This document shows positions 9,180 to 34,091 of a stretch of DNA of 43,436 nucleotides, in pieces; positions within the stretch are counted from its first letter, which is position 1, and every line of letters starts with the position of its first letter. The position numbers and the translations under genes were made by a program. A model generated the notes under the pieces. That model made no database searches. It worked only from the letters and a program-made list of their open reading frames with translations, and was not told the origin of the DNA. The stretch comes from Armatimonadota bacterium. Its GTDB lineage: Bacteria > Bacteroidota > Ignavibacteria > OLB7. The stretch is taken from the NCBI GenBank assembly GCA_020850315.1, contig JADZEY010000103.1, forward strand, positions 1 through 43,436. Direction: 5' to 3'.

Positions 9180-9755
9180 TTATCCGTGCATTGTTGGCTG
9201 CGATTCCAGCCCCAGCACAATTTCCGATTCCCGCTCGGTCAGCGCGTCCAACCGCTGGCGAACATCACGCTCGGGGAAGTACTGGCAGGCGATGTCGTAG
9301 AACGTGCGGTAGTGGCCGGCCTCGCTGGCAAGCAGCGAGCGGTAAAATTCCTGAAGCTCGGCATCGGGGACGTGCTTGCTGAGGATGGAGAAGCGTTCGC
9401 AGGAGCGCGCCTCGATGATTGCCGCCACCAGAAGCTGATCCATCAGCCGCTCCGGCTCGTTCTTCCGGATCTCTTTATGAAGTGCTTGGGCGTAAGGGTC
9501 GCCGGGATCCCGTTGCAGCGTGAACCCACGTTTGCGGATGTACTCATACACCATGCCGAAATGCTCCATCTCCTCCTGGCAAAGCGCGATCATCTGCCGA
9601 ACCAGCATCTCCTTTTCTGGATAGCGGCTCACCAGCGACATAGCGTTGACGGCAGCCTTTTTTTCGCAATGGGCGTGGTCAATCAACACCTTCTCAAGGT
9701 TCGATTCAGCAGCCATAATCCACGATGGCTGCGAGGGGATTTTTAGGCAGAGCAT
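9180..9755 (-). CDS. miaE: tRNA-(ms[2]io[6]A)-hydroxylase (MiaE-like diiron protein)
   Basis: MiaE hydroxylates the isopentenyl side chain of ms2i6A at tRNA position 37 through a ferritin-like diiron centre. Metal ligands are visible as paired Glu/His motifs: DHAHCEKKAA, EEMEHF, EARSCERF and SEAGHYRTF. The start is uncertain. ATG 9755 gives MLCLKIPSQPSW and 191 aa, matching my memory of family N-termini. An in-frame ATG at 9794 gives 204 aa, but its start codon lies inside the terminal repeat of the neighbouring MITE-like element. Neither has a strong RBS. It sits upstream of fmt on the same strand. Confidence 0.85.
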   Translation of the reverse strand: MLCLKIPSQPSWIMAAESNLEKVLIDHAHCEKKAAVNAMSLVSRYPEKEMLVRQMIALCQEEMEHFGMVYEYIRKRGFTLQRDPGDPYAQALHKEIRKNEPERLMDQLLVAAIIEARSCERFSILSKHVPDAELQEFYRSLLASEAGHYRTFYDIACQYFPERDVRQRLDALTERESEIVLGLESQPTMHG

Positions 9756-9793
9756 AGTTGGGAATGTCAAATGAAGAGTAGCCTCTTTGCTCA

Positions 9794-10092
9794 TAACTGA
9801 CCTTACGCAAAGCCAAGGTCAGTGGTCAGTTGTAAAGAGGGTCATTAGTCATTGGTCACTCACCTTACGCAGAGTTTGGAGAGTGAAGATTTGCTGGCCG
9901 GTGGCTTGCTTCGATGCTCTTCTTCTCTTCGGCTTTGGCTCCCTCTCCCACCCGACCAATGGAGTGGAATCAGTAGCATCACCCGCTTGGGAGAGGGTGT
10001 GCCGATAGGATCGGCATCTTCGAGAGGGTGAGGGCTGGCCCAATGCGAGTGCCTTCGACCATATCCAGCTTGGCTTTGCATAAGGTGAGTTA
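9794..10092. mobile_element. MITE-like element with 25-bp terminal inverted repeats
   Basis: The left end (9794-9818, TAACTGACCTTACGCAAAGC...) and the reverse complement of the right end (10068-10092, TAACTCACCTTATGCAAAGC...) match at 22 of 25 positions. Between them are an internal direct copy of CTCACCTTACGCA (near 9859), GGTCAGT repeats (about 9817-9830) and an inverted pair CCCTCTCCCA / TGGGAGAGGG (about 9950-10005). No ORF of note lies inside. The right end abuts the stop codon of the TauE/SafE gene; the left end covers the alternative miaE start. A target duplication is not evident. Confidence 0.6.
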
Positions 10093-10866
10093 CTAACTGA
10101 CCAGCGCCCACACCGTGAAGCCAACGGCAAACGCCATCATTAACGCCCCATAGATTCGCTCCAGTGTGGCACTGTGAAGCCGCGTGGCAAGCCGTGCGCC
10201 AAGCGCGCTGCAGGGGATTGAGGTACAGCAGAGCAGCAGCCCCGTTGGCCAGTCAATGTGCCCTTCCAGCCCGTGCGTTATGGTGTTGGGAATGGAAAGG
10301 CAGGCAACGCAAAACAGTGAGGTTGCCAACGCCGTTTTGGTTGGCAACTTCACCACGTTCATAAACGCTGGCCCAAGCACAATCCCGCCGCCAATGGCAA
10401 GGAAGCCGGAAAGGAAGCCGGAAAGCGCGCCCGCGCCGTACATGATCGCGCCGGAGTGGTGCGGGTGATCGGCTGGATTCGGTTGCGCCTTACCACGCGC
10501 CCCGATTTGCCAGCCCCGCTCGATAAAACTCCACGCTGACCAAATCAGCACAAGCCCTGTTAGCACCATCAACACTGCATCGGATGTTTGGCTGGTTAGC
10601 AGCGCGCCAACGGCGGTTAGCGGGAACGCCACAAGTAATGTCCGCCATGCGATATCGAACCGCACCATCTTCTGCCGGGCATAAACGATTGAGCCAGAGA
10701 TTGCCGCAGGGATTGCCGCCGGAAGGGGCGTTGCTACCGCCAACACCGCCGGCATTCCAATCAGCAAGCGAAGCAGTGGCGTGGAAAGCAACGCGCCGCC
10801 AACCCCGAACATCCCCGCCGAAAACCCGATGATTGCGCCGATAAGTAGAGTAAGCAGAATATCCAT
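10093..10866 (-). CDS. TauE/SafE-family sulfite/anion exporter
   Basis: This 257-aa polytopic membrane protein belongs to the TauE/SafE (DUF81) permeases, which move sulfite, sulfoacetate or related organosulfur anions. About eight hydrophobic helices are visible, arranged as two repeats. The first opens with GAIIGFSAGMFGVGGALL and the second with GALSGFLSGFLAIGGGIVLG, the internal duplication typical of the family. ATG 10866 begins MDILLTLLIGAI. The substrate cannot be assigned. Its stop codon touches the end of the MITE-like element. Confidence 0.88.
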   Translation of the reverse strand: MDILLTLLIGAIIGFSAGMFGVGGALLSTPLLRLLIGMPAVLAVATPLPAAIPAAISGSIVYARQKMVRFDIAWRTLLVAFPLTAVGALLTSQTSDAVLMVLTGLVLIWSAWSFIERGWQIGARGKAQPNPADHPHHSGAIMYGAGALSGFLSGFLAIGGGIVLGPAFMNVVKLPTKTALATSLFCVACLSIPNTITHGLEGHIDWPTGLLLCCTSIPCSALGARLATRLHSATLERIYGALMMAFAVGFTVWALVS

Positions 10867-13990: not shown

Positions 13991-14120
13991 GGTAGTTGGT
14001 TGGATATGCTGGATTGATGCTTGGCAAAATAGTTGCTTCGGCAGTGATGCGTGGCGTGGCTTGCATTGTGTCACAGTGGGGAACTCCATTTCCCAGCCAC
14101 AGTGTTGGCCATTCAGTGAT

Positions 14121-25928: not shown

Positions 25929-25942
25929 CTCACCTTACGCAA
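25929..25942 (+). repeat. Solo copy of CTCACCTTACGCAA
   Basis: This matches the terminal and internal repeat sequence of the MITE-like element at 9794-10092. Here it stands alone in the gap between the PAP2 terminator and the anti-sigma gene. Confidence 0.5.
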
Positions 25943-25986
25943 CACCATTGGCAGCGTGTCCGATGCCATCTGAGAAACCCGGTGGG

Positions 25987-27717
25987 TTACTCAGCCTTGC
26001 CCAAACGGCGCAAATACGATTGCAACTGCTGGCGTTGCTTGGCTGAAAGGGGGGTTACATCAATCACTGCCTTGCCATTCACCATTTCGTACTGAAGCTG
26101 AGTTGCTCCCCCTCGTGTTCGTTTTCCTTCCCCTTTCTGCACCAGCGTGACTTGGATTGTCAGGGCCGAATCAAGATGCAGCTGGGCATTGCGTGCCACC
26201 GATTTGCCCGCAAACAGGCGTTGCGTGGCCGGCCCGGTAACGGTCAGTTGGCTGTTGCTCAATCCAATAAGATCATCCGCTCCAACTTGTGGGCCAGCGG
26301 CGGCGGCAATTCCTTTTTGTGATGGACTGGTTGCAGCCACCCGGGCCGGGTTGGACTCTATTTTCCGGACTTTGGAACGCGACTTTCCCTCTTCTGATTT
26401 CTCTGCCGCAAATCCAGCCGGGACATCCTCGGAATCATCCTTGAACTGCTTGGAAGAAGGGTTTGCATTTCTGCCACGCGGGTTCACCTTGTGCAGATCC
26501 GCAGCGATGATTGGCGCAGGCGGTGGCGGCGCGGCGGTGGCAGTCCAACTGTCAGAAGCGCTCATGGACTCTGATCCCCATTCCATCTGCGCCACCGACG
26601 CGGAATCTTCCGCTGCTTCTCTGGAGACTGACCCCATCAAACTGATGCCGCCGCTGGGTGGGATGGAGTGGCTGAACACCACATCTCTATCCAATGGGCT
26701 TGCTGCGTCCACATCTCCATCAAGCACATCGGCGATAGTTGTGGGGGAGGTGGTATCGGCAGGAACGAAGGTTTTAGAGCCTCTTCCATCCAGCAGTACG
26801 GTGCCGTCCTTAGCATTGATTTTCAGCGGAGTTGTGATTTCATCCTCATCAAGTTTTGCGATCCCTCCGCCGCTGGCTTCGGTTGCGCCGCTGGCCGTGG
26901 CTATTGTCGCACCAGAAATATCTTCCACTGTTCCAGATAGCGCAGATAGGGAAGTAGGTTCGGAAGCCATGTCATCCATTTCAGCGATTGCATCATCATC
27001 GTGGCGCGCTTCCGCTGGACTGGTGCGGGCGCGGTACAATGCCACATCAGCTTCATCCGCTGCAACGGCTGCTGGTTGGATAGCTGGCTGATTCATCGCC
27101 AACAGTTCTTCCCCAACGTTTCCCGCAATCACAGAATCGGCCTGAATCGGGGAAGTTGCTCCATTGCCCGCTTCTGTTGTTGCTTGTGGCCGGGCGTTCA
27201 ACCCAACGTCCTGGCCAGACTGAGCATCGGCAAGGCTTGGCTCGGATTGGTTGCCGCCAAACCCGCCACGTTGCCAAACGATGCCGCCGGCAACCACCAA
27301 CACCAGCAGCGGAAGCAGGATTGCGGCCAATCGCCGACGGCGGCGCGCAAGCGTTTGATTGGCTGCCAATACCGAGCGGGGAGCAGGATGATTTGGTGGC
27401 GCAAACCGCGGCCCAGTGGAAGCTGGCGGAGGCTCCTCCAGCAACGACGCTACCAGAGCTGCCGGAACGGAAGCTGCCGAATCGGTAAGCGATCCCATCC
27501 CTTCTTCCTGTTGCAGGCGGCTGAACAGGGCGTTGCGCATCTGCACGCTTGGCGTGTGCAGCACCCGTGCGTCGCGCGCAACCCCCTGCAAGGCGATCTG
27601 CGCCCTGAAGATCTTCCGCGCCTCGGGCGAGACCGACAAGCGATGATGCAGCTCGGCCTCGGCCTCACTGCTCAACGTGCCGTCAAGGTATTGTGATATT
27701 AGATCTTCGATATTCAT
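25987..27717 (-). CDS. Probable transmembrane anti-sigma factor
   Basis: This 576-aa protein starts MNIEDLISQYLDGTLSSEAE, a cytoplasmic anti-sigma-like N-domain (about residues 1-75) without zinc-binding Cys. One membrane segment follows after a basic stretch (RRRRRLAAILLPLLVLVVAGG, about 130-150). A long periplasmic part of low complexity comes next, rich in Ala, Ser, Asp and Pro, ending in a conserved-looking domain (about 490-576; LTVTGPATQRLF...QYEMVNGKAVIDVTPLSAKQRQQL). It lies 84 bases behind the ECF sigma gene, so it probably holds that sigma until a signal arrives. ATG 27717 is preferred over an upstream extension. Confidence 0.7.
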   Translation of the reverse strand: MNIEDLISQYLDGTLSSEAEAELHHRLSVSPEARKIFRAQIALQGVARDARVLHTPSVQMRNALFSRLQQEEGMGSLTDSAASVPAALVASLLEEPPPASTGPRFAPPNHPAPRSVLAANQTLARRRRRLAAILLPLLVLVVAGGIVWQRGGFGGNQSEPSLADAQSGQDVGLNARPQATTEAGNGATSPIQADSVIAGNVGEELLAMNQPAIQPAAVAADEADVALYRARTSPAEARHDDDAIAEMDDMASEPTSLSALSGTVEDISGATIATASGATEASGGGIAKLDEDEITTPLKINAKDGTVLLDGRGSKTFVPADTTSPTTIADVLDGDVDAASPLDRDVVFSHSIPPSGGISLMGSVSREAAEDSASVAQMEWGSESMSASDSWTATAAPPPPAPIIAADLHKVNPRGRNANPSSKQFKDDSEDVPAGFAAEKSEEGKSRSKVRKIESNPARVAATSPSQKGIAAAAGPQVGADDLIGLSNSQLTVTGPATQRLFAGKSVARNAQLHLDSALTIQVTLVQKGEGKRTRGGATQLQYEMVNGKAVIDVTPLSAKQRQQLQSYLRRLGKAE

Positions 27718-34006: not shown

Positions 34007-34091
34007 TGCAGGAGGGGGGAGTCGAACCCCCACGGGTGTTGAGCCCGCCAGATTTTGAGTCTGGTGCGTCTGCCTATTCCGCCACTCCTGC
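34007..34091 (-). tRNA. tRNA-Leu (anticodon CAA)
   Basis: A full class II cloverleaf is visible: acceptor stem GCAGGAG/CTCCTGC, anticodon stem CCAGA/TCTGG with loop CTCAAAA (anticodon CAA, reading UUG), long variable arm CGGG...CCCG, and T stem GGGGG/CCCCC with loop TTCGACT. CCA is not encoded (CAC follows the discriminator A). It lies between gyrA and the ribosomal operon. Confidence 0.95.

Follow-up and report, generated by a model that had tools for sequence, protein, structure and literature searches.

The window, which is the whole stretch of 43,436 nucleotides that was analysed, contained a repeat-bounded unit between two genes of the same strand. The downstream neighbor was miaE, encoding a tRNA hydroxylase (9180-9755, minus strand), and the upstream neighbor was a gene of the TauE/SafE family (10093-10866, minus strand). 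The original prediction placed a 299-base MITE-like element between them (9794-10092), with 25-base ends matching in inverted orientation; these ends matched at 22 of 25 positions (9794-9818 against the reverse complement of 10068-10092), and the repeat-bounded unit was real. Its extent had to be revised: judged against copies flanked by clean target duplications, the element proper spans 9797-10089 (293 bp). The outer bases TAA and TTA of the predicted unit belonged to target-like heptamers, CTCATAA on the left (9790-9796) and TTACTAA on the right (10090-10096). The terminal repeat common to the aligned copies was CTSACCTTACGCA, and the 13-bp ends of the window copy had zero and one mismatch, the outer left terminal inverted repeat being exact (CTGACCTTACGCA, 9797-9809, plus strand) and the right one carrying the mismatch (TGCATAAGGTGAG, 10077-10089, minus strand).

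The internal repeat copies and the GC-rich inverted pair of the prediction were also present. A second left end, exact and oriented like the outer one (CTCACCTTACGCA, 9859-9871, plus strand), lay where the minimal unit of other copies starts, and the spacer between the two left ends (9810-9858, plus strand) consisted of heptamer-type repeats, GTCAGTG/GTCAGTT and then GTCATTA/GTCATTG. The cargo (9872-10076, plus strand) was derived from a genus-wide palindromic repeat, designated 'a' (GCTCCCTCTCCC...GGGAGAGGG), but had a small additional hairpin inserted and a different right arm. It contained the GC-rich pair CCCTCTCCCA (9941-9950) and TGGGAGAGGG (9988-9997), as well as a smaller hairpin, TGCCGAT-AGG-ATCGGCA (10000-10016, arms 10000-10006 and 10010-10016). 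The ORFs that overlap the element (up to 93 aa) were mechanical, and none resembled a transposase on inspection by eye, as predicted. The right flanking heptamer fitted the target consensus of the family, but it agreed with the left heptamer at only 4 of 7 positions, and TTGGTCA at the inner end also agreed with it at 4 of 7. The window copy was without a clean target duplication and, therefore, its two left ends, single right end, heptamer spacer and hairpin cargo probably represent a rearranged or composite copy. Elsewhere in the window, a second exact family end (25929-25941, plus strand) was followed by an apparently truncated 'c'-type interior, and no facing end occurred nearby at up to three mismatches; the stretch 25929-25990 is a truncated copy. 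No curated RNA family of Rfam matched the element, and the sole match in the window was a tRNA at 34007-34091.

The element was predicted to touch both neighboring genes and possibly to affect their expression. The TauE stop codon (10093-10095) did fall within the right heptamer. On the other side, an ATG at 9794 exists as an alternative start of miaE, but the likely start (9755) lies about 40 bases from the element, because similarity to the sister genome was lost upstream of position 9766 or so and the frame from 9755 matched the Pfam MiaE model almost completely (residues 4-190 of 191). A regulatory function under selection, with the element acting between TauE and miaE as a hairpin or attenuator, would agree with the shared strand of the two genes and with the predicted RNA fold, which is strong (-104.1 kcal/mol, z -3.40). 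However, any inverted-repeat element should fold in this way, an unrelated element occupied the same spot in the sister genome, and no intrinsic terminator-like or promoter-like site was found within the element; one weak promoter-like site lay outside it, at 9691-9719. A regulatory role was therefore considered unlikely.

The genome of origin (G000; 4.24 Mb, 138 contigs) contained many further copies, as was anticipated. The 299 bases matched 64 stretches of this genome (E ≤ 0.01), and the exact 13-mer CTSACCTTACGCA occurred 125 times (65 and 60 on the two strands) vs. none for the reversed control; at up to two mismatches, there were 376 ends vs. 106 for the reversed control. The stretches used for comparison were a sample picked by BLAST match or exact end: the window, 33 by BLAST and 40 by exact end (74 in all), with 100 of the 376 ends among the matches listed. 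They gave 97 candidate pairs, several of which were nested alternatives of one copy, after pairs longer than 700 bp, shorter than 60 bp or with more than four mismatches in all had been dropped. At least six of seven flanking bases matched in 39 of the 97 pairs (20 of them perfectly), whereas cross-locus control heptamer pairs matched at 7/7 in 1.6% and at 6/7 in 8.4% of cases; the 58 pairs below 6/7 were in many cases nested alternatives of the same copies. The duplication consensus was approximately TTASTAA, and left heptamers approximated T[TG]A[CG]T[AC]A. The family combines terminal inverted repeats, short length without a transposase, and high copy number with variable presence, and it has the target-site duplication that the window copy (4/7) does not.

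An open frame of at least 100 codons ended in the duplicated heptamer in 12 of the 39 good pairs vs. 108 of 5324 random positions, which might suggest a specific strategy of insertion at stop codons. Sites matched for the target motif gave 11 of 39, so that the observed number was at the level of chance, and the corresponding count in distant genomes was 1 of 23. The excess is a by-product of the target motif, and specific targeting of stop codons is highly improbable. An equally improbable reading concerns the heptamer arrays by the ends (TTAGTCA and similar units), which could be footprints of repeated insertion and excision: the unit TTAGTCA fits the target preference and was found as an actual duplication (L075), and the accessible text of PMC4679880 raises transposon excision as a possible origin of TAACTGA repeats. 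However, across 245 genomes the arrays and the ends were not associated. TTRGTCA tandem pairs numbered 127 in G001 vs. two exact ends, and 21 in G108 and 23 in G201 vs. none, whereas the end-rich genomes G172, G110, and G103 had no such pairs. The arrays look like landing sites instead. Tandem TTRGTCA arrays were abundant in a few scattered genomes (G001, G000, G155, G108, and G201), absent from most, and unrelated to the MITE.

The closest named relative found was a genome of the same genus (G001, Chlorobiota bacterium isolate new MAG-306, JAEUSP01), whose TauE-family protein was 93% identical. It contained the exact 13-mer only twice (one on each strand). The window element was absent from its syntenic miaE/TauE spot and is thus not conserved in place. 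A clean empty site, as called for in the original prediction, was not obtained because the corresponding spacer of G001 is occupied by an unrelated MITE flanked by TA (L043:1320-1477). The shell of this other MITE, ACTCCAAACAGARTGGTTTGCG, had 119 hits in G001 at up to three mismatches vs. one in the genome of origin, and its flanks were TAT/ATA; further loci examined were L209 and L211-L220. A second candidate for a clean empty site, L086 against L118 of G001, was rejected on the same grounds, since the G001 spacer also holds the other shell. Different shells are thus present in the two species at two syntenic spacers, in a comparison from which alignments shorter than 250 bases were dropped before counting. 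The G001 shell enclosed ATTCCCGCGAAAGCGGGAAT hairpins or, at the miaE/TauE spot, a 'c'-type hairpin, and the sole ACTCCAAACAGARTGGTTTGCG copy in the genome of origin (L210) also enclosed 'c'. One of the G001 cargoes may be 'dRS3-like'.

The interiors of the family in the genome of origin belonged to three classes, 'a' (the GCTCCCTCTCCC hairpin), 'b' (CTCAGCATGAGCGG), and 'c' (GTCATTGC... hairpins), which occurred alone or combined, with or without the heptamer spacer; only 2 of the 97 pairs fell outside these classes. Ten 'a' units aligned with one another at 92-97% identity, while the inner unit of the window copy reached 78-83% with them because of its extra hairpin and different right arm. 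The same hairpin families were found within the CTSACCTTACGCA shell, within the other shell of G001, and bare. It is conceivable, though doubtful, that the interior palindromes are mobile or replicating REP-like units that invaded pre-existing MITEs, with the ends being passive. Among the fetched stretches of the genome of origin, 40 of 93 'a' or 'b' core matches had no facing ends, and 'a' was widespread in G001 (at least 23 core matches, in stretches without CTSACCTTACGCA ends), where such ends are almost lacking. Moreover, bare 'b' occupied three G001 spacers (L236/L237) that are syntenic to the window, making them approximately 200-240 bases long vs. 35-39 at positions 14081, 15132, and 16278 of the window. 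On the other hand, complete end-to-end units between 7-bp duplications indicate that movement bounded by the ends did occur, and where these ends and duplications recurred in other genomes, the interiors were unrelated.

The same ends were not confined to this genus. At least one exact end was present in 23 of 245 genomes of the same class, including the genome of origin and G001, and the highest counts after the genome of origin were in G147 (61), G172 (25), G110 (24), G103 (17), and G048 (11). A distant sample of 40 stretches from 14 end-bearing genomes, tested together with L175 and L163, gave 34 candidate pairs, and 23 of these (from 10 of the 14 genomes) had duplications of at least 6/7, 20 of them perfect and mostly TTANTAA. 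The distant units were 112-359 bp long, and the sequences adjacent to the ends differed from genome to genome; 10 distant genomes of the class hence shared the ends and the duplication around unrelated interiors. In contigs of G110 (L156-L158), ends lay within approximately 20 bases of many contig ends, which suggests an assembly-breaking multi-copy IS of this kind.

Contig ends of G172 and G103 also carried the end, together with a common coding stretch. A 32-residue peptide from such a contig end led to an intact frame of 371 codons in G172 and to one of 358 codons in G129; such ends enclosed both frames, and the corresponding full-length elements were located at L175:451-1636 and L163:765-1945, respectively. 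Both proteins exceeded the cut-off of the NCBIfam model NF049921 for the IS701 family (325 and 339 bits, cut-off 250), and both frames contained DDE domains in Pfam. A third element, in G165 (L224:1391-2571), had the ends CTGATGTTACGCA and a perfect TTATTAA duplication. The flanks in G172 were exactly TTANTAA in 9 of 13 cases on the C-terminal side and in 9 of 12 on the N-terminal side (duplicate loci removed). The matching full-length transposon that the original prediction called for therefore exists in G172, G129, and G165, and in the genome of origin as a decayed relic only. This relic (C9 of G000) had 29% identity over 91 residues as well as 12 of 18 N-terminal residues, adjoined an end with one mismatch, and was also recovered by NF049921 (8.6e-10). 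Searches of the genome of origin with NF049921 or by homology recovered no intact transposase of this type, and no DDE_Tnp_1 domain (PF01609) was found there either.

In the class-wide search, NF049921 had matches in 22 of 245 genomes, four of which were above the cut-off. Seven transposase loci were checked for flanking heptamers: G165 (L224) had 7/7, G129 and a relic in G198 (L222 and L233) had 6/7, and G172 (L223) had 5/7, while the loci of G126 and G239 (L225 and L226) had ends without matching heptamers and that of G059 (L221) had no such ends. Ends and transposase occurred together in seven of the 245 genomes vs. approximately two expected (23 with ends, 22 with transposase; Fisher p = 0.0017, kinship ignored). 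No NF049921 match was detected in 16 of the 23 exact-end genomes, in some of which multi-copy IS are broken at contig ends. A pair of ends in G172 (L138, 1917 bp, 492-aa protein) was rejected as an autonomous element because other inverted ends, AGAGGCTGTGTxAAAAT, were seen inside it by eye; it therefore looks like a foreign IS within a shell of the CTSACCTTACGCA-end family (L138:456-2372), and its protein is one that we take to be IS1182-like. Judged from sequence, the MITE was most likely mobilised in trans by a transposase of the IS701_2 type, because full-length elements with the same ends encode IS701-type transposases and the genome of origin holds only the relic.

With many further copies, no conservation in place, and transposase-bearing relatives elsewhere in the class, the MITE-like designation was right, and the stretch 9794-10092 is confirmed as a member of a multi-copy, non-autonomous inverted-repeat element (MITE) family in this Chlorobiota-related genome. 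Bacterial MITEs are short, have no ORF with a function of its own, and are characterized by inverted ends, direct target repeats, and high copy number, all of which agree with the family, according to the accessible text of a review (PMC10969869); here, however, the interior is not a shrunken IS but is exchanged for several dispersed palindromic families, and no DNA homology between the MITE interior and the IS interior was shown. The terms 'IS701', 'IS4', and 'chimeric' do not occur in this review. The transposases of full-length elements with near-identical ends resembled the IS701 family in their curated-model scores (312-339 bits, cut-off 250; G129, G165, and G172). However, in the accessible text of PMC2266710 (2008), the 27 IS701 elements treated nearly all have a duplication of exactly four bp, whereas the MITEs and the IS of G165 have one of 7 bp (approximately TTANTAA), and the full-length elements are approximately 1.18 kb here vs. 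1.4-1.55 kb there. The ISPepr1 subgroup of the IS4 family is similar in that it duplicates 7-8 bp, uses AT-rich targets, and prefers 5'-CT ends, but ISPepr1 elements are 1.5-1.6 kb long, as far as given in the same source (PMC2266710), and the G172 transposase scored 325 bits with IS701_2 vs. 103 bits with the best IS4 model. A literature search with the exact end sequences returned only an unrelated match (liver cancer cells, judged by title), and no match for IS701 with 7-bp repeats was recognised among titles and the beginnings of abstracts.

These results suggest, with little remaining doubt, that the window element is a composite non-autonomous copy (MITE) whose CTSACCTTACGCA ends are those of an IS701_2-type IS that duplicates a 7-bp target of approximately TTANTAA. 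The unit was most likely cut at these ends and moved by a transposase acting in trans. Since the genome of origin holds only a decayed transposase fragment, the family is probably no longer mobile there, unless a gap in the assembly hides an intact copy. The interior is not derived from the IS; a genus-dispersed kind of hairpin repeat was presumably enclosed by the ends and then amplified, and the constant junctions suggest that there were few captures. The insertion adjoins the TauE stop codon and separates two genes of the same strand, a position in which it does little obvious damage; a transcript of the element is predicted to form a strong hairpin.

The element is of an ordinary kind, a MITE, in an uncommon form, with IS701_2-type ends, a 7-bp target, and exchangeable palindromic cargo. 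Like REP and BIME palindromes, those of its interior are short and rich in GC and occur in large numbers between genes, but unlike the former they sit within a shell that makes target duplications. The reciprocal pattern of shells and cargo in the two sister species is the most unusual part, and from it we infer an exchange of cargo between shells. As a tentative extension, MITE shells might form one layer of a two-layer system, serving as interchangeable vehicles for a pool of dispersed hairpins: the sister species would each have amplified an unrelated shell (CTSACCTTACGCA with a 7-bp duplication, and the TA-flanked ACTCCAAACAGARTGGTTTGCG) loaded from a common pool (hairpins of the GTCATYGCGAGGAG family occur in both), and intergenic palindromes may hitch-hike in MITEs. 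Inverted-repeat elements with otherwise unrelated interiors are hereby tied, across the class, to one transposase type through their ends and 7-bp target, and this subgroup departs from the duplication length stated for IS701. How intergenic palindromic repeats disperse is a question that dates from the description of REP elements. If shells do carry interchangeable cargo, they would provide a testable route for the dispersal of such repeats in bacteria.
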